The position numbers and the translations under genes were made by a program. From Dyadobacter sp. UC 10 (GTDB lineage: Bacteria > Bacteroidota > Bacteroidia > Cytophagales > Spirosomataceae): a stretch of DNA of 64,000 nt. Below, in pieces: positions 10,291 to 47,547 of this stretch. Below the pieces are notes generated by a model that was not told the origin of the DNA, searched no databases, and was given only the letters and a program-made list of their open reading frames with translations. Location: contig NZ_VSRN01000001.1 in assembly GCF_008369915.1 (NCBI RefSeq), forward strand, positions 992,001 to 1,056,000. Direction: 5' to 3'. The number at the start of each line of letters is the position of its first letter. Within the stretch, counting starts at the first letter, position 1.

Positions 10291-11622
10291 TTACTTCTTC
10301 CCGTATTTCCCCTTGTACTTCTCGTAAAGGCGTTTTTGCTTGTCGTCCAGATTCACTTTTCCTCCTTTCACGAAAACCATTTCTACCACATTACCACGCA
10401 TATCCAGGATATCGCCCTGGGAAACGATCAGCGAAGCGTGTTTGCCTTTTTCCAGCGTCCCCACCTCCCTTTCCGCACCAATTATTTCAGCAGCATTTTT
10501 GGTGACAAATTGAAGCGCGTCTTCAGGGGAAACGTCAGCAAACCCTGACGATGTTCCGGCCATAAAAGCAAGGTTTCTTGTCCGCCACCATTCGTCCGCG
10601 TATGTGATAGCCACTTTTACACCCGCTTTGTGCAGCATCCCGGGAAGTTCATAGGGCAGGTATACATTTTCATCTACGCGCCCCGGTAACCTGTGTGTAG
10701 GGTTAAGGACCACGGGAACCTGGTTTTCTTTCAAGAAAGCGGCCACTTTATACGATTCATTGCCGCCTACAATCACTACCCTTTTTATACCAGCCTCCCG
10801 CGCAGTTTTCACTGCTTCCACAATATCTTTTGCATAATCCGCACGGATATAAAGATTGGATAGGCCAGCAAAAAGTGGCTTCATTGCAGCCAGGCGGAGA
10901 TTTACCGTACCAGGTTCATTTATTTCATTATAACTCTTCGCTTCTGAAAACGTGGACTTAATCGGGTCGATCACTTCCTGGCGCTTCTCATTTCTTTTAA
11001 CTGAAACAGAAAAATCTTCATAATTAAAGCTGCTCGCCAGAAATGGCGGCCAGCTCAGCCAGATACCATCGTCTTTCTTCAAAACCGCATCTTCCCAGTT
11101 CCATCCATCGCTGTAAAATGCAGAAGAGGAACCTGATATCACGCCGCCTTGCGGCACTGCCTGGGATACCAGGATCCCATTTCCACGCAGTGTAGGAATC
11201 ACCTCCGAATCAGTATTATAGGCGACGAGTGCACGAACATGCGGATTGATCTCGCCTACTTCATTAAAATCCAGTGTGGCGCGCACGGAAGCAATTTCCT
11301 GCAAACCCACAGTCGTATTCAGTGAGATAATCCCCGGAAAAATATGCTTTCCCTTCGCATCGATCGTCTCCGCATTCGTAACACCCGGATCGGAGCCTGC
11401 TGCGCCCAAATAGGTGATCAAACCCTTATCAAAAGCAATCAGACCATTTTGGATCACCTGCCCGTTACCGACGTGGATTGTGGCACCAATAATAATCACC
11501 GGACGCGACTGAGGTAGTGCGGGGGCTGGGTTTTGCGCCAAAATTTCCGCCTGCACAAATAGCGAAGCCAGGAATAAAAATGTCTTGGAAAATGGATTAC
11601 GTATCATTTGAAACAATGTCAT
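10291..11622 (-). CDS. Amidohydrolase-family protein, probably exported, metal site degenerate
   Basis: This 443-residue protein has a signal peptide (residues about 1-30, ending AEILAQ) and the composite beta-sandwich/TIM-barrel layout of amidohydrolases: GKHIFPGIIS before barrel strand 1 and a C-terminal EDALQFVTKNAAEIIG...GTLEKGKHASLIV. At the position of the usual HxH metal ligands (about residues 100-103) it has SLNT, so the normal binuclear metal centre is missing. It lies 5 bp after the larger amidohydrolase gene on the same strand, so the two are surely one operon. It may be a non-catalytic partner of that protein or bind a ligand. Its role is inferred. Confidence 0.85.
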   Translation of the reverse strand: MTLFQMIRNPFSKTFLFLASLFVQAEILAQNPAPALPQSRPVIIIGATIHVGNGQVIQNGLIAFDKGLITYLGAAGSDPGVTNAETIDAKGKHIFPGIISLNTTVGLQEIASVRATLDFNEVGEINPHVRALVAYNTDSEVIPTLRGNGILVSQAVPQGGVISGSSSAFYSDGWNWEDAVLKKDDGIWLSWPPFLASSFNYEDFSVSVKRNEKRQEVIDPIKSTFSEAKSYNEINEPGTVNLRLAAMKPLFAGLSNLYIRADYAKDIVEAVKTAREAGIKRVVIVGGNESYKVAAFLKENQVPVVLNPTHRLPGRVDENVYLPYELPGMLHKAGVKVAITYADEWWRTRNLAFMAGTSSGFADVSPEDALQFVTKNAAEIIGAEREVGTLEKGKHASLIVSQGDILDMRGNVVEMVFVKGGKVNLDDKQKRLYEKYKGKYGKK

Positions 11623-11627
11623 AGCTA

Positions 11628-14600
11628 TTATCTGTGTCCTTCGTGCTCGGTGTGCACACCTACTATATCTTCACAATGCCACATTTTTGGCTGCACCGCC
11701 TGCGGTTTCTGTGTAGGCTTGCCCTCTGCTTTGTCATTCAGCATTTTCTGGATCAGCTTCTCTCTTTCCAATTGCATTGATTTTTGCTTTTCCTCATCCT
11801 TCTTTCTGTCAAAATACACGGCGCCTTCTACCATTGTAAATTCAGGACGGGCGTAAATGGATAGCGGATGCGCGTTCCAGAGTACAAGATCGGCGTCTTT
11901 GCCGGCTTTGATACTCCCCATTTTGTTGTCAACGTGAAGCAACTTGGCTGGATTAAGCGTCACCATTTTCCAGGCTTCCTCTTCCGGAACGCCGCCGTAT
12001 TCAACCGTCTTGGCCGCTTCCTGATTCAATCGGCGGGCCATTTCAGCATCATCGGAATTAATCGCGACAGTTACACCCTGGTGGTACATCAATGCTGCAT
12101 TGTAAGGAATTGCTTCCTTTACCTCCATTTTGTAAGCCCACCAGTCAGCGAAAGTCGAGCCGCCGATACCTCTTTTCGCCATTCCGTCAGCAAGTTTGTA
12201 GCCTTCAAGAATATGGGTGAACGTATTGATCTTGAATTTCAATGAATCAGCCACGTGCATCAGCATATTGATCTCCGACTGTACATAAGAATGGCAGGTG
12301 ATAAATCGCTGGTTATCTAGGATTTCCGCCAGCGCGTCCAGCTCAATATCTCTTCTCGGTGCATTTGCCGGCACTTTTTTAGATGTGGAATTGAAATTCT
12401 TCCAGCTCTTCGCATATTCTTTTGCACGTATAAAATGGTCGAAGTAAACCTGCTCCACGCCCATTCTCGTTTGGGGAAAACGAACTCTCGCGACATCACC
12501 CCAGTTGGATTGCTTCACATTTTCACCCAATGCAAACTTGATCGTTTTCACATCCGGTAATACCATTTCAGACTGGCTTGCACCCCACTTTAACTTAATC
12601 ATCGCACTCTGGCCTCCTATAGAGTTAGCCGAACCGTGCAGCAAATGCGAAGCGGTTACCCCACCCGCAAGCTGGCGGTAGATATTCACGTCATCCGGAT
12701 TCACTACATCGCTCATTCTCACTTCGGCCGAACTCGTTTGGCCGCCTTCATTGATCGTAAATAGGGCAATATGCGAATGCTCGTCAATAATACCGCTGGT
12801 CAAATGTTTGCCGGTACCGTCAATTGTCTTCGCTCCCGAAGGTGCTGCCAGTGACTTTCCAACTTTTGCGATTTTCCCGTTCTGGACAACTACGTCTGCA
12901 TTTTGAAGAATACCCTCCTGCTCATTCGTCCAGATAGTCGCATTCTTAATCAGTACAGTTTCAGATTTCGGCAGCTCTTCATTTCCAAAACCAACAAATG
13001 GATACAGAATTGGGCTGGTTTCTTTTGGTTTGAGAGTAACTGTGTCGGCCGCGGCAATTTGCTGGAACTTTTCAGTCAGTGTAGCATTCCACGGCACTGT
13101 TGCACCATTTGGCAAAATACCTTCGCCGGATAATGTGGTCCCGGTAAGCCAGCCAGTGAGCCGCGTCGTGCCAGGTGCTTTCTTGTCAGCCTGGTAATTC
13201 AATGTCAGTAATTCATTCGAAAGGATCGCCTTGGGCGTGATTTTGACAGAATCCTGAACGATCACTTTGAATTCCGGCTTATCGGGTGAGCCGGTAATTT
13301 GCAGCTTGCCGCCCGGTTGGTTGTTGATCGATAATGTGTAGGTCCCTCGGATATCTGGCGTATTAATGGGTGCTAAAATGAATTTCTTTCCCTGTATCCA
13401 GTTCTCGTAAATCACATTGTCTTTTCCAAAAAGATCTCCGGAAGTAATGATAAAATTTGCCAGCAAGCCTTGCTTCAAACTTCCTATCTGGTTTTCCGCT
13501 TTGATCAGACTAGCCGGTAGCGTTGTCAGAGCTTCCAGTGCTTTTTCTTTTGGTAAACCATATTCAACTGCGCTTTTGATGTTTTTCCAGAAATCGGCCT
13601 TATTCTTCATTCCGGCGGATGTAAATGCAAAAGGTATCTGCGCCTTTGCTACTTCCGAGGCATTTTTGGGTGCCATTTCCCAATGTTTGAGCTGTGCCAT
13701 ACTGATCACATCTGCATCCCAGGGATCGGTTACATCATAAGCTTCCGGAAATTGAAGGGGTAAAATCAGCGTGGCTCTGGTCGCTTTAATTTCATTAATG
13801 CGCTGATATTCATCGCCCCCACCTTTGATTATATATTGAACTCCGAATTCATCACCTACCTTATCAGCCCGCATAACACTGTATTTATCTCCGGTTTCGA
13901 AGAAAGAAGGCAGGGCTTTGATCTGGTTAAATGCTTCCAACGACAAATTGGCCTCTTTCGCTTTTGAAGTGCGGGCATACCATTCTGCGTCGTAATAATT
14001 TTGTCTCAAAAGCGCCACGACACCCATCGTAGAAGAAGGGTATGTCTGGGAGGAAGTACCTTTGCTGAACGAGAAATGCGCAGAAGCTTTTCTGTTCAAA
14101 AGTGCCTTGTTGGCAGCCTCGTCGGTTAGCGTTACCAGAGCGCCATTTCCTCTGACGATTCCATCGTGTGAATGGACGAGTACAGTACCGAAGCCAATTT
14201 TGCGTAAATCAGCTGCTTTTTTTGTGTCTGGTGTAAATACCATACTGGCATCATTTTCAGCCTGTATTGCCTGGTTCCAGCCGAATGCGCCTTTTTTGTT
14301 GGATTCCAGCTGCGGAGTTTGTCTTCCGCCAGCCGGCCGGTCACGCTTTACCTCGGGCATACCATAGTCCGAATCCAGGTCGATCAGCGAAGGATAAATG
14401 AATTTGCCCTTCAGGTCCACGACCAAGGTTCCAGCCGGCAGCTTTACCTGCTTTCCAACCTGACTGATCAGTCCGTTTTCGATCAGTAATGTGCCGTTTT
14501 CAATAGTTGTTTTGGGATCGACAATGATGGTGGCATTGGTGAATGCATACCGGCCTGGTCTTTCATCGTAGGCCCCGTTTTGCGGGAAAGTTTGCTGCGC

Positions 14601-34333: not shown

Positions 34334-36196
34334 ATGTCCAAAAACTCCACAAGCGGAAATCTGCGCCCCTGGCTAATTTTCTCTATCATTCTAATAGCAG
34401 GCCTCGCTTTAAGGTTCTACCGCCTTGATCGTTTCAGCATCTTTTTCGACGAGAAAAGTACGATGGTTGTCAGCCAGGGTATTGTACTCGAAGGAGCAAA
34501 TCAAAAAGAAGTTTATTCCACGCAAAGACTGGCAGTTAAGGAATTCTGGAAAGCGCCGAAACTGGATTATAAACCGCCGGTAGGCGTGATCAGATCATTC
34601 ACTTACGACGAGATACCTACCCTCCGCGCCTTCACGCCCGCAGAATTCTGGGCGCCGAAAAGCATTCAGGATTACTACGATGCAATTACCCGGAGCGATA
34701 TCGGGAACAGTCCCTTTTATTATGTAATCCTGCATTTATGGATGGATATATTTGGGTTATCCGATTTCTCGGCACGCGCCCTTTCAGTAATTTTCAGTAC
34801 CCTGATCATCGCACTGACTTTCTTTTTTGCCAGAAGATTTTTTAGCGTCAATACAGGTTTGATAGCGGCTGGTATTGTGGCTATTGAACCGTTTTTCGTC
34901 GCATACAGTCACCAGGCGCGCAATTATTCGCTTACCTTCCTTCTGACACTGCTCGCTACGTATTTCTTTTTGCAAATCATTGAAAATAAATACGATACGC
35001 GAAAAACGCTCTGGCTCTACGCAGGTTATATCCTGTCGGCCGGACTGGGATTACTGTCTCATTTTTTGACCATCTCCGTTCTACTCGCGCACGCCGCTTA
35101 TGCATTGTTCTTTCTGCGCAGTATTAAAGGCTGGATCAGAATGGCGATCGCGGCAGTTTTGTCACTTTCAGGCCTGGCCTGGTGGCTCACTTTCGGAGGA
35201 GGGTATTATACTTTATACACATTGAATGACCAGGCCCTTCTTTATAAAAGGATGGCGGAAACAAACCCTTTTAATAATCCTTACGGGCTCATATTGCCTG
35301 CCACTCCTGCCAACGTTTTTGAGCGGGCGCTGCCTATTTTTACTGACCTTGTCATATTCACCAACGGTCTTACCGATGCACTATCGGGCAAAAGAAATGT
35401 GCTGCTTGCCTTGGCAATAGGGATTTTACTGATTTTCTGGTTCAGGTTTAAACATAAAATCAATACACCGGGCTGGTTGATCCACAGATTTCCATTCTTG
35501 CTGATTATTGCGGCCGGCTTTTTTTACAACCATCACAAATTACAATTCACGATTTTCTCGATCAGTATTTTTGCGCTGTCATTTATTCCTGATATTCATA
35601 AGCAGGCAAGTCCCGAAAAGCGTAAAAGGTTGTGGATGCTGTATTTAATGGGCCTGATCCCAACATTTTTTCTGATTTTCATGGCATTTCGGGCAGGGCA
35701 CACCTATGGTCTCAACCAGCGCTATCCCGGGTTTTCTTTTCCTTATGTGATTATTTTGCTGAGCCTGCTATTACAATATTTCCGCAAGCTTGACATTGAG
35801 TTTAAAGTCCTGATTTATGGATTCCTGCTTATTCAGCTTGGATTTGTCGGGCTACGACTGAGGGAATTTTACCAGGATAGGTCGACTAAATACGGCTATT
35901 TCGCAAATCCGAGGGAACCGAATCCTTATTACGCGGCAGCTCAGAAAATCAAAAGTACTTATCAGCCTGGCGATACGATCTATTATCCGGCTGTCAGACT
36001 GGTTGCAATGCGGGAAATGGATAAAACCTTTCTGCCGGTTTCCGTTCAGGACGCACAGCTCACTAATATCTATCTCCCAAAAAACGCACAATATGTCCAG
36101 GTACTCGACACGTTGCAAGCCGACCGTATCTGGATCAAAAGATCCGGTCAGGTTCAGCCTGTTGAAATCGGGAATCTCAAAGGTGTCCGCTACTGA
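34334..36196 (+). CDS. GT39/ArnT-like membrane glycosyltransferase (GT-C fold)
   Basis: This 620-residue polytopic protein has about eleven hydrophobic segments. The first periplasmic loop carries FSIFFDEKST (D39-E40), the acidic pair that defines GT-C enzymes. The C-terminal about 120 residues form a soluble periplasmic domain (PREPNPYYAAAQKIK, TYQPGDTIYYPA). Such enzymes take a sugar from polyprenyl phosphate and transfer it to lipid, glycan or protein outside the inner membrane. Its natural donor could be made by the GT2 half of the fusion at 37152-39146, or by the enzyme at 19555. A TATTTTCG element lies about 70 bp upstream. Confidence 0.85.
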   Translation: MSKNSTSGNLRPWLIFSIILIAGLALRFYRLDRFSIFFDEKSTMVVSQGIVLEGANQKEVYSTQRLAVKEFWKAPKLDYKPPVGVIRSFTYDEIPTLRAFTPAEFWAPKSIQDYYDAITRSDIGNSPFYYVILHLWMDIFGLSDFSARALSVIFSTLIIALTFFFARRFFSVNTGLIAAGIVAIEPFFVAYSHQARNYSLTFLLTLLATYFFLQIIENKYDTRKTLWLYAGYILSAGLGLLSHFLTISVLLAHAAYALFFLRSIKGWIRMAIAAVLSLSGLAWWLTFGGGYYTLYTLNDQALLYKRMAETNPFNNPYGLILPATPANVFERALPIFTDLVIFTNGLTDALSGKRNVLLALAIGILLIFWFRFKHKINTPGWLIHRFPFLLIIAAGFFYNHHKLQFTIFSISIFALSFIPDIHKQASPEKRKRLWMLYLMGLIPTFFLIFMAFRAGHTYGLNQRYPGFSFPYVIILLSLLLQYFRKLDIEFKVLIYGFLLIQLGFVGLRLREFYQDRSTKYGYFANPREPNPYYAAAQKIKSTYQPGDTIYYPAVRLVAMREMDKTFLPVSVQDAQLTNIYLPKNAQYVQVLDTLQADRIWIKRSGQVQPVEIGNLKGVRY

Positions 36197-36331: not shown

Positions 36332-37159
36332 ATGACCGCAGAAGAGATATTCAATGACCCGAGGCAGATAAGCGGGGAGCTTCGTCTGAAAATCCTGGGA
36401 TTATACCATAAAGCAAATGCCGGCCACATTGGCTGCTCTCTGAGCTGCATCGATCTGATGGTGGCGGTACTTTTTCTTCAAAAATCACCTGACGATACAT
36501 TCATTTTATCCAAAGGCCACGCAGCAGCGGCTCTCTACGCCTGCCTGAATACGCTGGGAGAAATTACTGACGAAGAGCTGGACACTTTTTACCTCGACGG
36601 TACCACCCTTCCCGCCCACCCTGCACCCCGGCAATACAAAGGTATTCCTTTCGCAACAGGCTCATTGGGCCATGGTTTGCCTATTGCTACGGGAATTGCG
36701 CACGCCGCGAAAGTAAGCGGAGAGGATACCTATTCTTTCGCATTGCTTTCTGACGGCGAAACAAATGAAGGAACTACCTGGGAGGCAGCGCATTATGCGA
36801 TACAAAACCAGCTGGACAACCTGATCATGATCATTGACAAAAATGGTCTGCAGGGTTTTGGCTTCACGGATCAGGTTTTAGGCGAAACAGCTTCTGTTGA
36901 AAAATGGACTGCGATCGGATTTGAAACGGTTGAGCTCGACGGTCATGATGTGGCTTCTGTCAGCATTGCGATCAATGAGCTGAAAAGCCACAAAAATGGT
37001 CTTCCAAAAGCTATTATTGCAAATACGGTAAAAGGAAAGGGCGTTTCCTATATGGAAAACAAGCTGGAGTGGCACTACTTGCCAATGAATAAAGATCAAT
37101 ATGAGCAGGCAACCCTTGAAGTGAAGGAGCGCTATTTTAATGAATTAACGAATGCTTGA
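36332..37159 (+). CDS. Transketolase, N-terminal (thiamine diphosphate-binding) subunit
   Basis: This 275-residue protein equals the N-terminal half of transketolase. Features are AGHIGCSLSCIDLMVAVLF, ILSKGHAAAALYACL and TGSLGHGLPIATGIAHA. The ThDP/metal motif is SDGETNEGTTWEAAHYAIQN, with D141, G142 and E146, where the usual first Gly of GDG is Ser. The matching C-terminal half is the separate gene 39267-40187. It overlaps the next gene by 8 bp. Two-subunit transketolases occur in central metabolism and in sugar-modifying clusters; the glycosyltransferase context favours the second. Confidence 0.92.
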   Translation: MTAEEIFNDPRQISGELRLKILGLYHKANAGHIGCSLSCIDLMVAVLFLQKSPDDTFILSKGHAAAALYACLNTLGEITDEELDTFYLDGTTLPAHPAPRQYKGIPFATGSLGHGLPIATGIAHAAKVSGEDTYSFALLSDGETNEGTTWEAAHYAIQNQLDNLIMIIDKNGLQGFGFTDQVLGETASVEKWTAIGFETVELDGHDVASVSIAINELKSHKNGLPKAIIANTVKGKGVSYMENKLEWHYLPMNKDQYEQATLEVKERYFNELTNA

Positions 37160-39146
37160 TCATTTACCGGTTTACCGCGAGAAAATTGAGAGTTTAAAAG
37201 GTCCAATTTTCGTTTTCGGGGCCAGCGGCTTCATCGGCGCCAATCTATTTAATGACATTTTCAAGATCCGCAAGGATTGTTTTGCATTAACACACGATGC
37301 AACCAAAGCATGGAGATTGAAATTGCTCGATGTGCCTTTTGAAAATATCATCCACTGCGATATCCTTTCAAATAACTCCGTTCAGGAGATTTTTGAAAAA
37401 TATAAACCGCAAACCATATTCAACCTGGCCGCTTACGGTGCTTACAGCAAGCAAAGTAATGTTAACCTGACCTACGAGACCAATGTAATAGGAACGGTCA
37501 ACATCCTGCAAAACTGTACGCCGGAAATGGTTTATATCCACGCAGGAAGCAGCTCCGAATATGGTTTCAATTGCACAGCTCCAAAGGAAACCGACCGTGT
37601 AGAGCCGAACAGTCATTATGCCGTTTCCAAGGTTTCAGCTGCGTATCTGCTTGAATATTATGCCAAAGTAGCTGATCTCAAAACACTGAACCTGAGGTTA
37701 TATTCAATATATGGCTACTGGGAAGAGCCTGACAGGCTGATTCCGAAATTGATCGAAAACGCGCGGAAAAAGCAGCTGCCGTCGCTGGTTTCACCGGATA
37801 TCAGCCGCGATTTCGTTTTTATTGAAGACTGTGTTGAAGCATTTCTGGACGCTGCATTGAAGGTCAGCAAAGAAACTTCCGGAAGATCTTACAATATCGC
37901 CACTGGTAAAAAAACGACCATGGGCGACCTGGTCGAGACAACCCGCTCCACATTCTCGATTACACAGCAGCCTCAATGGGGCAGTATGTCGAACAGGAAA
38001 TGGGACCTGGCTGGCTGGTTTGGCGACCCGCATTCTTTTGAAGCAGATTTTGGGTGGAAGGCCCGTACTTCGCTCGAAACCGGCCTTTCGAAATACAGTC
38101 AGTGGCAGGAGGAAATCCGGTACGAATACAAGGTGATCCCGGCTTTTGAAAATCCGAAGTTAAATCCGGTTATTACTGCGATCATTGCTTGCTACAAGGA
38201 CGCTCAGGCGATTCCATTCATGTACGAGCGGCTTGTTAAAACTTTTAATGACCTGAAAGTTCGGTACGAAATCATCTTTGTAAATGACAGCTCGCCGGAC
38301 AATCAGGAGGAAGTAATTAATAAAATCTGCGATAAAGACCCGAATGTGGTAGGGATCAGTCACTCGCGGAACTTTGGTTCTCAATCTGCCTTTCTAAGCG
38401 GAATGGAGATATCAACGGGCGATTGTGTCGTTTTAATGGACGGAGATTTACAGGATCCGCCGGAGATCATTCCTGCATTCTATGAAAAATGGATGGAAGG
38501 AAATGATGTGGTTTACGGTGTGCGGGTACAGCGGGAAATGAAGCCGCATATCCACTTTTTCTATAAGACATTTTACAAGCTTTTCCAGGGACTCAGCTAC
38601 ATTCCTATCCCACGCGATGCGGGTGATTTTTCGATGATCGATCGGAAAGTTGTAAAAGAATTAGTGGACCTGCCTGAAACCGAGCAGTTTTTAAGAGGTC
38701 TTCGCGCCTGGGTTGGTTTTAAGCAAACTGGCGTTCCTTATGTAAGGCCTGAACGAATGTTCGGAGTTTCGACAAATAACTGGACCAAGAATATCTGGTG
38801 GGCGAAAAAGGCGATATTCTCATTCAGTTTTGCGCCGCTGGAACTGATGAGTTATGCCGGATTTGCACTGACAGGGCTTTCAATTCTGGGGATAATCTGG
38901 CAGATACTCGCCAAATTTTTCTTCTTCCGGGATACGCCGCACGGGGTTACCACGATTATAGTCCTGATCGTATTCTTTGGCGGATTAACAATCCTCGGAA
39001 TTTCGTTTTTGGGAGAATACATCACCAAAATATTTGAAGAAACTAAAAAGCGACCCAAATACATTCGCACCAGAATCCGCCGTGGCGCCAAATCATACAA
39101 AACCGCCGACGAGATTCGCGCTTTAGTGAAGCAATTGAGGAAGTAA
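37152..39146 (+). CDS. Fused nucleotide-sugar epimerase/dehydratase and polyprenyl-phosphate GT2
   Basis: This 664-residue protein is a fusion. Residues 15-320 form an extended SDR enzyme: VFGASGFIGANLF (NAD-binding GxSGFIG, 23-29), AGSSSEYG near 132 and the catalytic pair Y156/K160 in SHYAVSKVSAAYL. Residues about 335-664 form an ArnC/DPM1-like GT2: NDSSPDNQEE (376-385), SRNFGSQSAFLSGM and the metal site DGDLQDPPEI (428-437). Two membrane helices follow (about 557-585 and 597-622). It could make a nucleotide sugar and load it on polyprenyl phosphate in one chain, much as the separate ArnA and ArnC do. It overlaps the transketolase N-subunit gene and is followed by the C-subunit gene. Confidence 0.9.
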   Translation: MLDHLPVYREKIESLKGPIFVFGASGFIGANLFNDIFKIRKDCFALTHDATKAWRLKLLDVPFENIIHCDILSNNSVQEIFEKYKPQTIFNLAAYGAYSKQSNVNLTYETNVIGTVNILQNCTPEMVYIHAGSSSEYGFNCTAPKETDRVEPNSHYAVSKVSAAYLLEYYAKVADLKTLNLRLYSIYGYWEEPDRLIPKLIENARKKQLPSLVSPDISRDFVFIEDCVEAFLDAALKVSKETSGRSYNIATGKKTTMGDLVETTRSTFSITQQPQWGSMSNRKWDLAGWFGDPHSFEADFGWKARTSLETGLSKYSQWQEEIRYEYKVIPAFENPKLNPVITAIIACYKDAQAIPFMYERLVKTFNDLKVRYEIIFVNDSSPDNQEEVINKICDKDPNVVGISHSRNFGSQSAFLSGMEISTGDCVVLMDGDLQDPPEIIPAFYEKWMEGNDVVYGVRVQREMKPHIHFFYKTFYKLFQGLSYIPIPRDAGDFSMIDRKVVKELVDLPETEQFLRGLRAWVGFKQTGVPYVRPERMFGVSTNNWTKNIWWAKKAIFSFSFAPLELMSYAGFALTGLSILGIIWQILAKFFFFRDTPHGVTTIIVLIVFFGGLTILGISFLGEYITKIFEETKKRPKYIRTRIRRGAKSYKTADEIRALVKQLRK

Positions 39147-39266
39147 TTTTAAAGGTTTGCTAATCAGCAATTTAACTTGGCATAAGATTGAATTTTTCGA
39201 AATAATTTCGCAGCTTCATATTTGCTTTAAGTCAATCATAAATAGCAGTTTGATTCATCATCAACA

Positions 39267-40187
39267 ATGAGAAAAGAATTTTCAAATGCCATGGAACAGT
39301 TAGCAGTGGAAGACGATTCTATCGTCTTTATCACGGGCGACCTTGGCTATAATGCACTGGAAAATTTACAGGCGAAACTTGGCAAGCGTTTTATCAATGC
39401 AGGCGTCGCTGAGCAGAATATGGTTGGAGTGGCCGCAGGTTTTGCGCACAAAGGTTATAAGGTATTTTGTTACAGCATCGCGCCGTTTATCGTTTACAGA
39501 TGCCTGGAACAATTCCGCAACGACGTATGTTTCAACAACTTGCCTGTTTTTTTAGTGGGAAACGGAGGTGGTTATGGTTATGGTATTATGGGCAGCAGCC
39601 ACCATACTATTGAAGACCTGGCTTGCCTGAGCGGACAGCAGAATGCCAATGTCTGGGTGCCTGCATTTGCTGACGAGGTAGATCATGTTGTGAAACAAAT
39701 TGCACGCGATGCGCGTCCGGCTTACCTGCGCCTCGGAGCCGGAAAAACCACCCCTGAAAACAGCACTACTACCGGTTCATTTAAGATTATTCATCAACCT
39801 GAGCATGCCGACATTACCGTCTTTGCGTTAGGGCCGATCGCGAATAACGTACTTTCTGCACTTTCACTATCCGAAGAACTTGCGTCCAAAGTAAACGTAG
39901 TTACTGCATTGCATTTCCCTTTGAAAATCAATGAAGACCTGAGCGAGCTGATCAAAAAAGCACCCGCTATCCTGGTGGCCGAGGAGCATATCAGCACCGG
40001 TGGACTTGCGCAGCAATTGTCTGTTCAGCTGCTGGAAAAGGGTATTTTCCCTCGCGCGTTCAAAAGTTTGAAGGCAGAGGGTTATCCGAATGCCCGCTAC
40101 GGAAGCCAGAGCTATCACCAGAAGATTTCAGGACTTGATCCGGATTCTATTTTATCCCATTTGAGTCAATTAATGATACCGGCATGA
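39267..40187 (+). CDS. Transketolase, C-terminal (pyrimidine-binding) subunit
   Basis: The 306 residues contain the Pyr domain and C-terminal domain of transketolase: FITGDLGYNALENLQAK, then INAGVAEQNMVGVAAGFAHK with the catalytic glutamate E49 that activates thiamine. GGGYGYGIMGSSHHTIEDLA and the terminal domain follow (VALxPI-like FALGPIANNVLSALSLS). It completes the N-subunit at 36332, from which it is separated by the epimerase/GT2 fusion. Its stop overlaps the next ORF by 4 bp. A TAATTTCG element lies 57 bp upstream in a 120-bp gap, so it may also have its own promoter. Confidence 0.92.
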   Translation: MRKEFSNAMEQLAVEDDSIVFITGDLGYNALENLQAKLGKRFINAGVAEQNMVGVAAGFAHKGYKVFCYSIAPFIVYRCLEQFRNDVCFNNLPVFLVGNGGGYGYGIMGSSHHTIEDLACLSGQQNANVWVPAFADEVDHVVKQIARDARPAYLRLGAGKTTPENSTTTGSFKIIHQPEHADITVFALGPIANNVLSALSLSEELASKVNVVTALHFPLKINEDLSELIKKAPAILVAEEHISTGGLAQQLSVQLLEKGIFPRAFKSLKAEGYPNARYGSQSYHQKISGLDPDSILSHLSQLMIPA

Positions 40188-41881
40188 CAAAAAAGGCTTT
40201 AACGATCATTCTGAGCCTGATCCTTTTGTTACCGGTCCTCATTTATTTTACGGTCTGGAACTACTACGCTATCAATATCCCCAAGTGGGATGACCATACT
40301 TTCAAAGCATTCATCATAGAATTCAGCCAGGCGACTGACTGGAAAGGCGAGCTTCGTGCATTAATGAGGCAGCATAATGAACACAGGATCGCTACGACCC
40401 GCCTCATTACGTGGATTGATTTCAAGATTTTCGGAGCACTCAATTACCGGCATTTGATGATAGCGGGAAACCTGTTGCTGCTTGCAGTGATCCCGTTGTG
40501 GTATGAGCTTTTGAAAAAGAACAAAAAGCCTCTTTTTGCGCTGGTACCTGTCCCATTCCTTTGGCTTACGCTCGCGTTTCACGAAAATATGTTCTGGGGA
40601 ATGTCTGCGATCCAGAATTTTGGGGTTGTTACGCTCACGCTCTGGACCCTGTTTTTATGCGTAAAGCCTAAAACCGCACCATTTATCGCCTCACTGGGCC
40701 TGGCCGTAGTAACCATACTGACAAGTGGAAACGGGTTGCTCGTACTTCCGCTGGGTGCCTTGCTCCTGTTCCTTTCAGGCAACCGCAAACGGTTTGCATT
40801 GTGGCTTGTATGGAGCGCCACTGCTGTAATTGCCTACTTTTATACCTACCAGAAACCGGAGTACAGCCCGGAATCCAAAGCGACCCTTTTTCAGCTTTTC
40901 AAGGGTTACATGTCGTTTCTTGGCTCCTTTGCCGAATCGTTTCCTGTCCTCGATCATTACCAGGTCTGCTTCTTTTTGGGTATCGTTTTATTTTTCGTCG
41001 CTGTTTCGATCGTTTCGACTACACTTTTCAGGATTATCAGAAATAAGTACACAAACAAATTCGAGCGGGTTACTGATCTGTTTTGTCTGGGCACAGTTCT
41101 GTTCATTCTCGGTACTGCGCTCATTGTCGTTTACTCAAGAGCCGGTTTTGGGATTGAGACACTGATTACCAGCAGGTACAAGATTTATTCTGTGCTGCTG
41201 TTGCTCGTTGCATATCTCTACGTTGTTATTCCGATCCGGGGCACGTTTTTGTCGCCATACATTACTGCCATTGTATTTTTGGCCGTAACCTTCAACGTGT
41301 TCAGCTATCATTACCACTTGGTAGAAGCTTACAACCTGCGGAAAATGCTGGTTACAGACCAGTTCAACTGGACTTTCAAGGACAAGGCCCTCGCCTACCC
41401 AACCGATACTTCGTTCGCTGCTAACATCATTGAAAAAACGCCCGTCATTTATGACAAATGGCTGTCGCTAATCTCCATTGCAGATCGTCAGACCTACGCA
41501 GGCGGTTCCCGCGGCATGATTCAGCTTTTTGACCAAACCGCATTTAAGGCCGCCCCTGGCTTATTGTCCGTCGAAAACAGCGTTTTCAGTAGTCAGCGGT
41601 TACAGGATAGCGGGGTGTATATCCTATTGAGCTCGAAAAAACGATATTACATTTTTCCTGCCTACCGGAGCCGGAACAAGAGCCGCAAGGAATTGTTTCT
41701 GAAACAGTACTACTTTTCAAGGGGCTTTTATGTCGATATTCCTTTTACGGAACCGTTGGAAAAGGGCACTTATGATATTGCATTAATCCGCCAGGATGGT
41801 GAGCGGACTGGTATTCTGTTCAAAAATCAGAAGGTTACCATCAATCAGATCAAGGATAATAAAGTGCGAGTAAACTGGTAA
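40184..41881 (+). CDS. Polytopic membrane protein, GT-C-like, unrecognised family
   Basis: This 565-residue protein has roughly eleven to twelve membrane helices over residues 7-400 and a C-terminal soluble part of about 165 residues, probably periplasmic. After the first helix it has INIPKWDDHTF with D36-D37, placed like the acidic pair of GT-C glycosyltransferases, followed by HNEHRIATTRLI. No named family was recognised. The gene overlaps the transketolase C-subunit gene by 4 bp and is followed after 2 bp by an acyltransferase. A role as lipid-linked sugar transferase in the same pathway is therefore a reasonable guess. Confidence 0.75.
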   Translation: MTKKALTIILSLILLLPVLIYFTVWNYYAINIPKWDDHTFKAFIIEFSQATDWKGELRALMRQHNEHRIATTRLITWIDFKIFGALNYRHLMIAGNLLLLAVIPLWYELLKKNKKPLFALVPVPFLWLTLAFHENMFWGMSAIQNFGVVTLTLWTLFLCVKPKTAPFIASLGLAVVTILTSGNGLLVLPLGALLLFLSGNRKRFALWLVWSATAVIAYFYTYQKPEYSPESKATLFQLFKGYMSFLGSFAESFPVLDHYQVCFFLGIVLFFVAVSIVSTTLFRIIRNKYTNKFERVTDLFCLGTVLFILGTALIVVYSRAGFGIETLITSRYKIYSVLLLLVAYLYVVIPIRGTFLSPYITAIVFLAVTFNVFSYHYHLVEAYNLRKMLVTDQFNWTFKDKALAYPTDTSFAANIIEKTPVIYDKWLSLISIADRQTYAGGSRGMIQLFDQTAFKAAPGLLSVENSVFSSQRLQDSGVYILLSSKKRYYIFPAYRSRNKSRKELFLKQYYFSRGFYVDIPFTEPLEKGTYDIALIRQDGERTGILFKNQKVTINQIKDNKVRVNW

Positions 41882-41883
41882 CC

Positions 41884-43005
41884 ATGCGTACAAATTCGTC
41901 GGGACATATCATTCAATTGGACGGAATCCGCTTCATTGCGATCGCGCTGGTCCTTGTTGAACATCTTTTTGTTGAAGTAAACTCCGTACCCGTAGGCGCG
42001 ACGGGCGTGACCATATTTTTTGTATTAAGTGGCTTTTTGATTTCACGTATCCTGCTGAAAAGCAGGGACAAGAATCATGATACTCCCGGCGGATTTAAAA
42101 AGTATCTCAGCAAATTTCTGATTCGCAGGACGATCAGGATTTTCCCGGTTTACTATCTGGTGATCCTGCTGCTTTTTATCTTTAATGTCCCTCCTGTTCG
42201 CGAAAAGCTTGGCTGGCTGGCACTTTACGGCACCAACATCTATATGGCCGTTTACAAAACATGGATGGGTTCTATGGACCATTTATGGTCGCTCGCGGTG
42301 GAAGAGCAGGTGTATCTGTTTTTTCCTTTTCTGATATTTTTCGTTCCCAAAAATAAGCTCATTCCCGTATTGGGCATTATGGGTGTTCTGAGCATCCTGT
42401 TCCGGTTATACTATTTTTACACGCATCAGGATTTCGGTATAGACGACTGGATTGTCACCTATGTAAGCACGCCTGCATGTCTGGACTCCTTTGCATTAGG
42501 CGGTTTGATGGCCTGGTTGCAGGTCTATAAAAACGATCTTTTCAGCAAGCTTTTCGGCAAAAGCTGGCCGGTAGTGCTGGCGCTGGCAGGCTGGATTTTA
42601 TTGCAGATCTGGTCAAAATCTTTTGACAACCGCTTCAACATTTCCTTTGTTGTATTTGACAGAACGATATCCTCCATTTTCGGGTTTTTCCTCATAGGGA
42701 GAGCGGTAATGGGGTACAATGGATTAATGGCCTCTTTTCTCGAAAATCCGGTAAGTATTTATCTGGGTAAGATTAGTTATGGCTTGTATCTCTACCATAA
42801 TTTTGTATTTAACCATTTTCATAGCGGGCCAATGCACCCTACTGTGCGGCTTTTCAGAAAAATATATCAGTATGTGCCCGATCTAAAAGGTTCTGTAGTT
42901 TTCGAAGCCCTGGTTGTTATGACTTTAACTGTGGCAGTAGCATCTTTCTCCTGGCATTTTTTTGAAAAGCCGATCAATGCATTGAAGGACAAGTACGCTA
43001 AGTAA
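41884..43005 (+). CDS. Acyltransferase family 3 (OafA/YrhL-like) membrane protein
   Basis: This 373-residue protein has about ten membrane helices. The N-terminal QLDGIRFIAIALVLVEHLFV with the conserved histidine of helix 1, then VGATGVTIFFVLSGFLISRIL, then KFLIRRTIRIFPVYYLVIL are family-3 hallmarks. These enzymes O-acylate sugars of the cell surface across the inner membrane. No extra SGNH domain is attached, but an SGNH-like gene follows later in the run (46513-47547) and could work with it. It starts 2 bp after the previous ORF. Confidence 0.93.
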   Translation: MRTNSSGHIIQLDGIRFIAIALVLVEHLFVEVNSVPVGATGVTIFFVLSGFLISRILLKSRDKNHDTPGGFKKYLSKFLIRRTIRIFPVYYLVILLLFIFNVPPVREKLGWLALYGTNIYMAVYKTWMGSMDHLWSLAVEEQVYLFFPFLIFFVPKNKLIPVLGIMGVLSILFRLYYFYTHQDFGIDDWIVTYVSTPACLDSFALGGLMAWLQVYKNDLFSKLFGKSWPVVLALAGWILLQIWSKSFDNRFNISFVVFDRTISSIFGFFLIGRAVMGYNGLMASFLENPVSIYLGKISYGLYLYHNFVFNHFHSGPMHPTVRLFRKIYQYVPDLKGSVVFEALVVMTLTVAVASFSWHFFEKPINALKDKYAK

Positions 43006-43076: not shown

Positions 43077-43820
43077 ATGTCATACCGTCTCAGTATAGTA
43101 ATGCCCGCATACAACGAACAGGATTGTATTGAAAAAGTAGTTTATAATTGGACAGACTTCCTGAAACAAACTTTTCCAAACGAAAAAACAACCCTGATTG
43201 TAATCAACGACGGTTCGAAAGACAATACCAAGGTTCTTTTGGATAAACTTGAAAAAGAAGTTTCCAACCTCACGGTAATCAACCAAAAAAATGGGGGACA
43301 CGGTAATGCAGTGGTAAACGGCTACCGTAAAGCATTGGAGCTGAACTCAGAATATGTATTTCAGACAGATAGCGACGACCAGTTTGTGTCGGCTGATTTC
43401 CAGAAATTGTGGGAAAAGCGTGACCGGTCACAGTTCATTTTGGGTTTCAGGCAAATACGGCATGATGCAGGTGTCCGCCTCTTTATCACCAAATTCCTTC
43501 GCGGGACTATTTCCATGGTATACGGGACGTTCATTATGGACAGCAATATTCCCTTCCGTTTGATCAAGGGGAGCTTCCTGCAAAAACTGATGGATCAGCT
43601 ACCGAATCCCGAACCATTTGCGCCCAACATATTTCTTTCCGTAATGGCGAAAAAATCAGGTCAGGAAACGTTCGATATACCCATAACTCATAAAGACCGG
43701 GAAACCGGAACTGTATCCATCGTTAAATGGAACCTTTGGAAAGTTTGTATACGAAGCTTCAAGGAACTGTTGCGTTTTCGTCTCGAACTGAACAAAAAAG
43801 TTAAGGCGATACGTGCTTAA
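43077..43820 (+). CDS. Family 2 glycosyltransferase
   Basis: This 247-residue GT-A enzyme has no clear membrane helix. Motifs are LSIVMPAYNEQDCIEKVVYN, VINDGSKDNTKVLLD, NGGHGNAVVNGYRKAL and QTDSDDQFVSADF, the last supplying the nucleotide/metal site. The C-terminal THKDRETGTVSIVKWNLWKV resembles cytoplasmic-face glycosyltransferases of polysaccharide clusters. A TAATTTCG element lies 25 bp before the ATG, suggesting an internal promoter. It precedes an 894-residue unknown by 11 bp. Donor and acceptor are unknown. Confidence 0.9.
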   Translation: MSYRLSIVMPAYNEQDCIEKVVYNWTDFLKQTFPNEKTTLIVINDGSKDNTKVLLDKLEKEVSNLTVINQKNGGHGNAVVNGYRKALELNSEYVFQTDSDDQFVSADFQKLWEKRDRSQFILGFRQIRHDAGVRLFITKFLRGTISMVYGTFIMDSNIPFRLIKGSFLQKLMDQLPNPEPFAPNIFLSVMAKKSGQETFDIPITHKDRETGTVSIVKWNLWKVCIRSFKELLRFRLELNKKVKAIRA

Positions 43821-43831
43821 TCAATAAGCTG

Positions 43832-46516
43832 GTGTCAAAAAAACGAATTCTTATACTCCTGTTGATTGTCGTCATAGCGTCAGCAGGATATTTGTTATAT
43901 AGATGGACCCGTGGATCTACCGCTGCCTGGAAATTTATTCCGACAAATGCGGTTGTAGTCATTACGAGTGAACATTTACAAGACTCTACCTACGTTGCAA
44001 CGGAGGCGGGCATGGATATCAAGCGCCTCCCGCTGCTTGACGTGGCCAGTGATAATCTCTCACTCCTCAATCTGCTTACGACCGATAAAAAAAGGCTATA
44101 CAATTTCCTCAAATCGAAAACTGTATCCTATTCCTATCACCCCCGCACCAGCACAGAATGGGGTGTGTTGATGTATATTCCGGTCAGCACCGAAGAACAA
44201 AAATGGCTTTCCAGTCCGCAAAACGCTAATATCCGGGCTTTACACCACAACTTTCAAAACCATCGCATTACCGATATTATTGACAGTAACTCGCGCCCGC
44301 TGTTCTCCTACCTCGTTCAGGACAATCTGTTGATCGTGAGTTATTATGGTGACCTGATTGAGGACGCAATACGTGCCTCTTCCCTCAGCATTGAATCTTT
44401 CCGACTGCGGTCGAAGTTTTCCGGCATTGACGATTCGGATTTCGGAACAAGCATTTACCTGCGCAACGATGCATGGAAATCGGTGATATCTCCTGACAAC
44501 GCCATCGGGATTTATACTGAATTTGCAAGAAACTTTCCCAGCTACCAGGACTTTCACATTGAATCCAAGCTTGCAAAAAAAGGGACTTTTACACTGAAAT
44601 CCCTGGGAGCCGACGCGCCCGACTATTACATGGCCAATATCCTGAAAGACATTCCGGGGATGCCGTTTGCAGGCCACAAACATATTTCGCAGCAGACTTC
44701 TTTCCTCTACCGATCAGCCGTGACCGATAAAGGCGCTTTTAAAAAGGAGTTTTTAAAATGGCATAAAAAACATAAATCACCCGCCTGGGATAAGCTGAAT
44801 TATTACATTTCGTCTGAAAGCAACTTGCTGATCGAGCATCTTGGATCAGAATTGATTTTATGCCAGCTTGAAGAAAATAACAGCATAAGTGACGGAAAAA
44901 TATTGCTGGCGGAATTTTCCAACTATGACAAGCTGCGACCTGTTCTTCAAAAGCTGGCGAGGCTGTCAAACTCGGAAACAAATGCCTCAGTCGATCAGTA
45001 TCAGGGTTACGATATCTATTCGGTACCTATTCCTGAGTTGCCCTCCGGACTCTTCGGGCCTATGTTCCCGGGTTTTCCCAGAAGCTATTTTACTTATGTA
45101 GCACCCTACCTGGTGATCAGCAACAATTCCCAGGTTTTGCAAAATTATATTGTCGATTACGAAAACCAGATTACCTGGAAACAGTCACCCGAATATGACA
45201 GCGTTTTAACCAGAACAAACAGTGAAGCGCAGCTATCCGTGATCGTCAATCTCAGAAAAGCGCAAACCAGGGCCGGGAATGAAGGTTTTAAAAAATATTC
45301 TGACTTGATCTCCAAAATGGAATCCGTTACTTTCCAATGCCGCTACAATGGTGACGATGCGTTTCCGGAAATCAGTTTTACGCCCAAGAAGAGACAAACT
45401 GCCAGCAAAGTTCTCAATCGCACTTTTTTGAACATCGATATAGAATGGCCTGATCTTTTCGACACCGAATTAACTGCCCTTCAGAATCCGGTTGATGGAA
45501 GCTCTGAGATTTTGTTGACCGATAAAAAGAATGACCTGCACCGGACCAACAACCTGCGCGAGGGAAAAACAGGAGTAATTGCCAGACTTGACGGCCCTAT
45601 AGTAACCAATTCCTATAAAGTTGATTTCCTGAACATTGGAAGGCAGCAGCGGATTTTCGCAACTGCTAAGACAGTCTATGCACTCGATGAAGACGATTCA
45701 ACGGTAGTTACCACTTTCAAGGGGATCGTACCTTCGCTGGCGGATATCAATGCATTGTATTCGATCGATGGCGGGGACGATGGAAGTAACCGTTTCATCA
45801 TCAAGACAACCGCCGAGGAACTGTTTATTTGGGAGAGCGTCACCAAGCCTGTCAGGAAACTTACGCATTCGGTCTCTTTCCAAAACATCCAGGGACCGGT
45901 AATCGCATTGAACCAGATCGGCAATAAAGGATTTATTGTGACTCAGAAAAATGGCAAGATTTACGTAGTGAAGGAAAATGGCCGCGTACGACAAAACTTC
46001 CCGGTTGATATCCTGACGAGATCAGAAAGTGCCTTCACCTGGACCCAGGACCCGACAACCGGCCAACCCGAAATTGTCGGTGTGAGTGTCTCCGGCGAGC
46101 TGACGCGGATCAACATGGACGGAAAAGTAACTTCTCGCCGGCAACTTCTGAGGCCAGAACCCGGATCCTCGTTTAAGACAGTAATTGACCGTAATTCACT
46201 TGACTGGATATTGGTGAGATCGGTAAATTCGAAGATTGCAATCATTAGTAAGGACGGAAAGGAATTGTTTGAGATTAAGGATATTTTGCCGAATTCAGTT
46301 ATCCAGTACCACTTTTTTGGTGTGGATAACCGGTTTATCACCATAAAGTCGGGCAACTACACGACCGTGTTTGATATGAGTGGCAAACGGCTGGGCGACA
46401 AGGCCATACCTTCCGAAATGCCTGTGCGGCTCACGTATCAGCCGGGCTATTACAAATTATTGATATTCAGCCGATCCGAGAAGAAAATTCAGGTATGGTC
46501 TGTTAAGCTGAGATGA
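43832..46516 (+). CDS. Large membrane-anchored exported protein of unknown function
   Basis: The start is GTG at 43832. A single N-terminal anchor (residues about 5-24, ILILLLIVVIASAGYLLYRW) is followed by about 870 periplasmic residues. The first 530 or so are alpha/beta with DUF3352-like character (WKFIPTNAVVVITSEHLQDS). The rest reads as beta-propeller-like strands (GNKGFIVTQKNGKIYVVKEN, VRSVNSKIAIISKDGKELFE), with alternating short blades. No catalytic motif was found. The gene overlaps the SGNH-like gene by 4 bp and closes the glycan run with it. It may be a scaffold or recognise the finished glycan. Confidence 0.75.
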   Translation: MSKKRILILLLIVVIASAGYLLYRWTRGSTAAWKFIPTNAVVVITSEHLQDSTYVATEAGMDIKRLPLLDVASDNLSLLNLLTTDKKRLYNFLKSKTVSYSYHPRTSTEWGVLMYIPVSTEEQKWLSSPQNANIRALHHNFQNHRITDIIDSNSRPLFSYLVQDNLLIVSYYGDLIEDAIRASSLSIESFRLRSKFSGIDDSDFGTSIYLRNDAWKSVISPDNAIGIYTEFARNFPSYQDFHIESKLAKKGTFTLKSLGADAPDYYMANILKDIPGMPFAGHKHISQQTSFLYRSAVTDKGAFKKEFLKWHKKHKSPAWDKLNYYISSESNLLIEHLGSELILCQLEENNSISDGKILLAEFSNYDKLRPVLQKLARLSNSETNASVDQYQGYDIYSVPIPELPSGLFGPMFPGFPRSYFTYVAPYLVISNNSQVLQNYIVDYENQITWKQSPEYDSVLTRTNSEAQLSVIVNLRKAQTRAGNEGFKKYSDLISKMESVTFQCRYNGDDAFPEISFTPKKRQTASKVLNRTFLNIDIEWPDLFDTELTALQNPVDGSSEILLTDKKNDLHRTNNLREGKTGVIARLDGPIVTNSYKVDFLNIGRQQRIFATAKTVYALDEDDSTVVTTFKGIVPSLADINALYSIDGGDDGSNRFIIKTTAEELFIWESVTKPVRKLTHSVSFQNIQGPVIALNQIGNKGFIVTQKNGKIYVVKENGRVRQNFPVDILTRSESAFTWTQDPTTGQPEIVGVSVSGELTRINMDGKVTSRRQLLRPEPGSSFKTVIDRNSLDWILVRSVNSKIAIISKDGKELFEIKDILPNSVIQYHFFGVDNRFITIKSGNYTTVFDMSGKRLGDKAIPSEMPVRLTYQPGYYKLLIFSRSEKKIQVWSVKLR

Positions 46517-47547
46517 TGGGAATGAAGGTTTTAAAATATGTGGTGCTGATTGTTGGATGCCTGATCTGGGCTGTGGGGCAAAGTCAATACCTGTTTGCCA
46601 AGGTGGGGGAATGGAATTGGATAAAGGACGGCTATCAGTATGGCGATCTGTACCGGCTCTCCAATCTGTCGGATTTCAGGGATCCAAGATTACCCTGTAA
46701 AGATTATACGCCACCTGCCCGGCCTGCGCATTCGAAAAAGGTCCATCTATACATAATTGGCGATAGTTTCACAGAAAAGCAACGGGTTGGTATTGAAGAT
46801 TTCCCGGTAGACAATTACACGTATGTCCACTGGGCCGATTTCCTGCACATTAAAGTTGACACTACCGAAACTAATATTCTCCTGCTGGAATCGGTGGAAC
46901 GGCATTTCCGTCAAAAAATGATGGACACACTCCGGGTACTGATCCCCGACACTGCGACATTCGTTTCGGTAGTTGATCAACCTCCTTTTATGCGGCAGCT
47001 GGATAATGCGTTCAACGGCACATTTACGCGCGACCGGCTTGAATTCTTTTTGTTCCAAAATGAACTCGCTTTCAAAGTAAAAGAATGGAAAGCTGACCTT
47101 CAACATAATCTTTTTGGCCGGGTCGATGAGTCTGTCACACTGGTGAATGACGGTCAGGACATGGTTTTTTATATGGACACGGACACCGCAGGGATTACTT
47201 CTTCCTTCAAGGAGGCCGCAGATAGCGAAATAGATACGATTGTGAAAAACCTTAATATTTCAGAACAGTTTGCCCGCTCGCTGGGCTTCAAGCACGTTTT
47301 TCTTTCCATTATCCCGAACAAAGTCTCCGTTTTGCAGCCGGATTATGGAGTTTACAATCGGCTGATCGAACGCGTCTACAACCATCCTGAATTAAAAATG
47401 CCTACAATTGATATACTGGCTGACTTTCGAAAGATGGGACGCAGATCCTACCTCAAAGGTGATTCTCACTGGACTTGTGAAGGCCAGTACCTTTGGTTGA
47501 ACAAAGTCAACACGGAAATCAACAGCATGGTTGCTGCTACTCCCTAG
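46513..47547 (+). CDS. SGNH-hydrolase-like (AlgX/AlgJ-like) exported protein
   Basis: The 344-residue protein begins with an uncleaved or signal-type hydrophobic segment (residues 4-22). It shows YIIGDSFTEKQRVG, with the GDS block-I serine. Near the C-terminus is YLKGDSHWTCEGQYLW, a DxxH-type block V, giving the Asp/His pair of SGNH esterases or acetyltransferases. This arrangement resembles the AlgX/AlgJ group that O-acetylates exopolysaccharide. It starts at ATGATG overlapping the 894-residue gene. Its last 11 bases overlap the 3' end of the convergent antiporter gene. Activity is inferred from motifs only. Confidence 0.75.
   Translation: MMGMKVLKYVVLIVGCLIWAVGQSQYLFAKVGEWNWIKDGYQYGDLYRLSNLSDFRDPRLPCKDYTPPARPAHSKKVHLYIIGDSFTEKQRVGIEDFPVDNYTYVHWADFLHIKVDTTETNILLLESVERHFRQKMMDTLRVLIPDTATFVSVVDQPPFMRQLDNAFNGTFTRDRLEFFLFQNELAFKVKEWKADLQHNLFGRVDESVTLVNDGQDMVFYMDTDTAGITSSFKEAADSEIDTIVKNLNISEQFARSLGFKHVFLSIIPNKVSVLQPDYGVYNRLIERVYNHPELKMPTIDILADFRKMGRRSYLKGDSHWTCEGQYLWLNKVNTEINSMVAATP

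Follow-up and report, generated by a model that had tools for sequence, protein, structure and literature searches.

A split transketolase and an SDR-glycosyltransferase fusion form a conserved module that probably makes an unusual surface sugar in Spirosomataceae

In yersiniose synthesis, reduction by a short-chain dehydrogenase/reductase (SDR) follows branching of the sugar by the enzyme YerE. The sugar that YerE branches in Yersinia is cytidine diphosphate (CDP)-4-keto-3,6-dideoxyglucose (PMC12247030). Split transketolases have been proposed to transfer a hydroxyacetyl group to a keto-sugar in miharamycin and amipurimycin synthesis, none having been tested in vitro, and 13 further ketone-accepting candidates listed in a 2025 review all come from Streptomycetes (PMC12247030). 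Here we analysed a 64,000-nucleotide stretch of Dyadobacter sp. UC 10 (contig NZ_VSRN01000001.1, positions 992,001 to 1,056,000; hereafter the window), in which the two chains of a split transketolase, TktN and TktC, are encoded on either side of a 664-residue fusion of an SDR with a family 2 glycosyltransferase (GT2). That these three genes constitute one conserved biosynthetic module is well supported, and its product is probably an uncommon cell-surface sugar, which may be branched.

The module would share with the yersiniose pathway a thiamine diphosphate (TPP)-dependent C2 branch on a nucleotide keto-sugar destined for a surface glycan. YerE, however, belongs to the decarboxylase superfamily and uses pyruvate, whereas the module enzyme is a transketolase: only transketolase-, DXS- and E1-type Pfam families match it, and membership of the YerE-like TPP decarboxylase superfamily was rejected. 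The miharamycin and amipurimycin systems resemble the module by their description, with a split-chain transketolase encoded together with an oxidoreductase and thought to act on a keto-sugar, but they produce nucleoside antibiotics and have no known lipid carrier or SDR-GT2 fusion. The GT2 half is comparable to GtrB-type sll0501 (PDB 5ekp) and ArnC, with which it shares the GT2 domain and two C-terminal transmembrane helices over about 300 aligned residues; in contrast to these enzymes, it sits behind an SDR in a single chain and is tied to a transketolase. No paper on such a locus was found in the searchable open literature, where most subscription papers are missing.

The transketolase chains and the fusion protein

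The preliminary description of this DNA had placed the transketolase subunits on either side of a 664-residue fusion, and all three open reading frames were found as described:

36332..37159, + strand: TktN, TPP-binding half of the dedicated split transketolase, 275 aa (Transketolase_N, 6e-30; catalytic and cofactor residues; HYLP signature)
37152..38141, + strand: SDR half of the fusion (residues 1-330), of the type that reduces or epimerises nucleotide sugars (Epimerase match; GASGFIG, S133/Y156/K160)
38142..39146, + strand: residues 331-664 of the fusion, its GT2 half, a polyprenyl-phosphate glycosyltransferase of GtrB/ArnC type that has two transmembrane helices (Glycos_transf_2; 5ekp; DGDLQDPP)
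39267..40187, + strand: TktC, 306 aa, the half of the split transketolase with the pyrimidine-binding and C-terminal domains (Transket_pyr, Transketolase_C)

The complete fusion frame (37152-39146) lies between TktN and TktC and shares 8 nt with TktN, while TktC overlaps the next gene, encoding a 565-aa protein, by 4 nt. A scan for promoters and terminators gave signal at chance level. In searches with Pfam and NCBIfam profiles, TktC matched Transket_pyr at 2e-26 in addition to Transketolase_C, and all three transketolase domains (N, Pyr and C) are present across the two chains. TktN retains all catalytic and cofactor residues checked (H32, H63, H96, D141, N171, H248) and TktC retains E49, H112, R2 and R155; the transketolase set H26, H66, H100, D155, N185, H261, E411 and H473 (E. 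coli numbering) is complete. The acceptor pocket is altered: H461, which handles the normal transketolase acceptors, is replaced by G100 of TktC and D469 by M108 (E. coli numbering). Glycine and methionine occupy these positions in every module member, whereas the genome's own housekeeping pair has histidine and aspartate. The TktC pocket reads GNGGGYGYGIMGxxHH, and the module pair has GNGGGYGYGIMGSSHH instead of the canonical pocket. The nearest solved homologue of both chains, the split transketolase of Carboxydothermus hydrogenoformans (6yak/6yaj), has the same division of domains between two chains but a canonical pocket of its own (THAG...GEDGASHQ). D469 is a known acceptor-specificity position, as are R358 and R520 (PMC7661550). 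Judged by its residues, the module transketolase thus appears catalytically competent, with an altered pocket.

Trees of the joined chains grouped all SDR-GT2-linked transketolases in one clade with 100/100 support, and a 100/100 branch divides this clade from housekeeping and catabolic enzymes. The genome encodes three split transketolase pairs, and the module pair is not the organism's only one: another, at C1:3732218, shows the canonical pocket SHAG...GEDGATHQ. Both the residues at H461/D469 and the separate clade led us to reject the housekeeping pentose-phosphate identity for the module enzyme, which appears not to serve central metabolism. The third pair, at C1:6539819, lies within a sugar-uptake operon with a fucose-isomerase-like protein. 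This accessory transketolase (C1 ~6538754-6542064; L051 8754-12064) stands beside an L-fucose-isomerase-C protein, a Sde182-type protein and a sugar ABC importer with DUF2291; it probably serves catabolism of an unusual sugar, and has close relatives in other Bacteroidota (L084, L091, L092).

Residues 19-250 of the fusion match the Epimerase family (1.2e-41). The S133, Y156, K160 triad and the GASGFIG motif are invariant among 24 orthologues, apart from one whose glycine motif differs at its first Ser/Gly. Both the Ser-Tyr-Lys triad and the glycine-rich NAD(P) motif are kept in the four most distant members. The SDR half thus has the GxxGxxG and Ser/Thr-Tyr-Lys signatures of extended nucleotide-sugar SDRs. 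The label epimerase/dehydratase given earlier stands for its first part. 4,6-Dehydratases require an Asp-Glu pair. In a phmmer alignment to 6bi4, the RmlB pair (TDE, after the catalytic Thr) is replaced by Ser-Ser, which is invariant among relatives. Since the pair is absent, an identity as a nucleoside diphosphate-sugar 4,6-dehydratase is unlikely; the nearest motif is GSSEEYG of the GDP-6-deoxy-lyxo-4-hexulose reductase 2pk3, and the SDR half is likely a reductase or an epimerase. No acidic residue follows its second strand, which suggests use of NADPH and would point to a reductase. No close relative outside a fusion came up when 345 genomes from across the phylum were searched with the SDR domain (E 1e-45).

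The second half of the chain matches Glycos_transf_2 at residues 343-504 (6e-26) and has two hydrophobic helices (565-583 and 595-624), in line with the two membrane helices predicted before. Its acidic metal motif DGDLQDPP is invariant, distant members included. With a GT2 domain, this motif and the C-terminal helix pair, it has the features of GtrB/ArnC-type enzymes; the earlier assignment as ArnC-like holds as to type, but sll0501 (3.8e-59) and PgfS are closer than ArnC (7e-32).

Conservation and gene order among relatives

The fusion is neither strain-specific nor a chance event of one genome. The named loci closest to that of the window all come from Dyadobacter. It is complete in 48 of 48 genus-set genomes and in 5 further genera of the family, and a relative with 57% identity (G065) belongs to another family of the order. 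Among 99 relatives, the fusion and a module-type TktC (E 1e-60 or better) occur in an identical set of 53 genomes, and both are missing from 8 members of the family. A search for the fusion and its flanking genes, as had been suggested, also showed that TktN, fusion and TktC follow one another on one strand in 72 of 80 named loci (Dyadobacter, Runella, Larkinella, Spirosoma, Arcicella, Siphonobacter and others), most or nearly all of the remaining loci being cut by a contig end. The scan of genome contigs covered close relatives only. G065 is a 54th genome with fusion and transketolase, on two contigs that break between them: its best TktN/TktC pair (46% and 37%) ends 51 nt from a contig end, and its fusion begins about 160-180 nt from the end of another. 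Its transketolase is of the module type (GNGGGFGYGIMG) and its TktC has the module pocket motif. In some genera, methyltransferase genes follow the fusion or separate it from TktC, as one would expect if the sugar is modified. In Runella (L135 12018-13727), a second GT-C-like protein with 23% identity to the 565-aa protein is inserted between fusion and TktC.

The module reaches a second phylum. On plasmid pMaq22A_1p of Methylobacterium aquaticum, TktN (L184 10212-11102), TktC (11102-11998) and the fusion (from 11995) overlap one another, and the fusion is 40% identical to that of the window in its SDR and 50% in its GT2. The TktN signature HYLP is common to the Methylobacterium and G065 homologues, and both fall within the 100/100 clade. 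The order TktN-TktC-fusion is also that of a Sphingobacteriales metagenome-assembled genome, and the positions of the contig ends in G065 would allow it. Since Methylobacterium and the Sphingobacteriales genome share this order, the wrapped order is derived; it is most simply a rearrangement within Spirosomataceae, and the gene set is what is conserved. The preliminary description had read a pathway from the wrapped order, and this meaning is not supported. Its broader idea, that the transketolase is joined to the loading of a sugar on a lipid carrier by the fusion, gains from the co-occurrence, the second phylum, the separate transketolase clade and a GT-C neighbour described below.

A different arrangement was seen on plasmid pHY1 of Methylovirgula sp. 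HY1 (L185 5770-12717), where tktN-tktC come immediately after rfbF-rfbG-SDR-rfbH, and the opposite strand carries a GtrB-like GT2 and GtrA. RfbF, rfbG and rfbH score over curated cut-offs, and together with the SDR they make CDP-4-keto-3,6-dideoxyglucose. This cluster is a strong, independent candidate for branched 3,6-dideoxysugars made by a transketolase.

Other split transketolases were found in different settings. Capsule-like loci of other Bacteroidota encode them at L083 8285-11621, L085 6154-7895 and L086 9240-10917, one beside a SIS-domain protein and an SDR, and two beside a metallo-beta-lactamase-fold protein. An Azospirillum argentinense plasmid (L198 5016-13895) carries one in an undescribed cluster, for a small molecule or a glycan, where it is surrounded by B12-binding/radical SAM proteins, an SDR, a kinase and a methyltransferase. 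Other plasmid transketolases appeared catabolic (Deinococcus, Streptomyces NBC_00184, Jiella, Klebsiella) or belonged to nonribosomal peptide synthetase or LysW clusters; they inform only the tree or its background. Phage records held solely split transketolases at about 40% identity or less.

Neighbouring membrane and glycan genes

Four further genes flank the module:

34334..36196, + strand: PMT_2 family multi-spanning protein, candidate GT-C acceptor enzyme for the lipid-P-sugar (PMT_2, 2.4e-16)
40184..41881, + strand: 565-aa membrane protein, often duplicated, with a predicted GT-C fold; it may use the lipid-linked sugar (predicted structure)
41884..43005, + strand: acyltransferase-3 family protein, probably decorating the glycan (family match; position kept in most genera)
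43077..43820, + strand: second GT2, soluble, 247 aa (family match; conserved position)

The 565-aa protein has no Pfam or NCBIfam match. Its AlphaFold model (predicted local distance difference test, pLDDT, 87.9) aligned in VIA-align with oligosaccharyltransferase STT3, ArnT, AftB and AftA at Z of about 14 to 16.6, and each of the 26 listed matches that exceed Z 8 is a GT-C enzyme or a complex that includes one. The model thus assigns its membrane domain the GT-C fold, but identity to ArnT, AftA/AftB and STT3 is only about 10%. D36-D37 are invariant in the family, which evolves fast (28-73% identity) and is often tandem duplicated. The PMT_2 protein has about 10 hydrophobic helices and adjoins the module in most genera. 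A GtrB-type donor synthase alongside GT-C users is a usual layout, and both proteins are candidate users of a lipid-linked sugar, the 565-aa protein on the strength of its model.

Farther downstream (43832-47547), several genera keep two more proteins behind the glycan genes: a DUF3352-like one of 894 aa, which has a hydrophobic helix at its N terminus, and one of 344 aa that falls into no family. The gene rpe lies about 6 kb upstream of the module in many genera. We rejected it as a pathway member, as it is the only rpe of the window genome and does not adjoin the module in Runella or Siphonobacter.

Proposed reaction and alternatives

The best reading, to which we give a likelihood just short of probable, is ketol transfer by the dedicated transketolase onto a keto-sugar, giving a C2 branch or extension. 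We prefer it because of the Methylovirgula parallel, YerE, the proposed split transketolases and the changed acceptor pocket, whose H461 and D469 other glycan-locus transketolases have lost too. It builds on the gene identities, their co-inheritance, the intact SDR and GT2 motifs and the predicted GT-C fold of the neighbour. From these we infer the order of the steps, a ketone as the acceptor, C2 branching and the action of the SDR as a reductase, and likewise which donor, nucleotide and final glycan are involved. The split transketolase would take a two-carbon unit (a glycolaldehyde equivalent) from a ketose phosphate and join it to an activated keto-sugar at the carbonyl, yielding a C2-branched or C2-extended product. 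The SDR half would then reduce (or epimerise) it, and the GT2 half of the same chain would pass the sugar to polyprenyl phosphate. Once flipped, the lipid-linked sugar would be attached to a surface glycan or glycoprotein by the GT-C enzymes, that is, the 565-aa and PMT_2 proteins.

Several observations weigh against this reading. The Methylovirgula transketolase falls outside the SDR-GT2-linked clade, which makes the parallel one of kind and not of descent. Nor does it carry over directly to Dyadobacter: a CDP-glucose 4,6-dehydratase scoring over the cut-off is missing from the window genome and present in 11 of 61 relatives, so the Dyadobacter acceptor cannot generally be the CDP sugar of Methylovirgula, and a CDP-deoxysugar route was rejected on these counts. 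A true dTDP-glucose 4,6-dehydratase is encoded elsewhere in the window genome. Both R358 and R520 are retained, and ordinary phosphorylated substrates may still be accepted. Sugar-catabolic split transketolases also lack H461 and D469; their loss indicates a changed substrate but does not by itself point to a keto-sugar acceptor. In the capsule-like locus of another bacteroidote (L083), the SIS-domain neighbour would fit supply of a heptose precursor instead. The AlphaFold model of the fusion is too poor for structural comparison (pLDDT 59), and the open literature yielded no biochemistry for any module member. Part of the co-occurrence inside one family is due to common descent; the genomes that lack both genes, and the copy in Methylobacterium, carry more weight.

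The retained arginines and the L083 locus, where the SIS-domain protein is GmhA-like, would also suit a transketolase that makes a nucleotide-sugar precursor in the form of a free sugar phosphate (sedoheptulose-7-P, pentose-P or erythrose-4-P) and never acts on the activated sugar itself. We consider this rather unlikely: neither the conserved module nor the overlapping Methylobacterium genes include an isomerase, kinase, phosphatase or nucleotidyltransferase, a canonical transketolase is already encoded elsewhere in the genome, and H461 and D469, which handle normal acceptors, are lost across the whole clade. Transketolase reactions being reversible, the enzyme could instead remove two carbons from a keto-sugar, or rearrange it, before the SDR fixes the shortened sugar and the GT2 loads it; such shortening of the chain is what sugar-catabolic transketolases do. 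Related split transketolases without H461 and D469 do occur in sugar-catabolic operons with kinases and importers, but the nearest of them lie across the 100/100 branch and the module has no linked enzymes that would process a small product further, which makes this improbable.

Much the same low likelihood applies to an acyl branch added from pyruvate or another 2-keto acid by DXS- or E1-like chemistry. TktC fits DXS models about as well as some transketolase models, and YerE and E1-type alpha-ketoacid enzymes make similar branches (PMC12247030), but H100 (E. coli numbering), which is Phe in DXS (PMC7661550), is His in all module members. That the transketolase genes are a spare pentose-phosphate copy that chanced into a glycan locus is very unlikely and already largely refuted. 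The upstream rpe, itself a pentose-phosphate gene, would speak for such an origin; against it stand the features of rpe given above, the strict co-inheritance with the fusion across two phyla, the separate clade and the changed pocket residues.

It is a realistic if uncertain prospect that, across the family and in at least one methylobacterium, a transketolase takes the place of a pyruvate-using enzyme in building sugars with a C2 branch (tertiary alcohols) or a C2 extension for the glycans of the bacterial surface, and that a single polypeptide passes the product from reductase to polyprenyl-phosphate transferase. Ketone-accepting transketolases have so far only been postulated, and this module of three genes, which is stable and widely conserved, lets the idea be tested in environmental bacteria that can be cultured. 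If ketol transfer onto a keto-sugar is correct, it would provide a biocatalyst for chiral tertiary alcohols, and transketolase would join the small set of enzymes that branch surface sugars.

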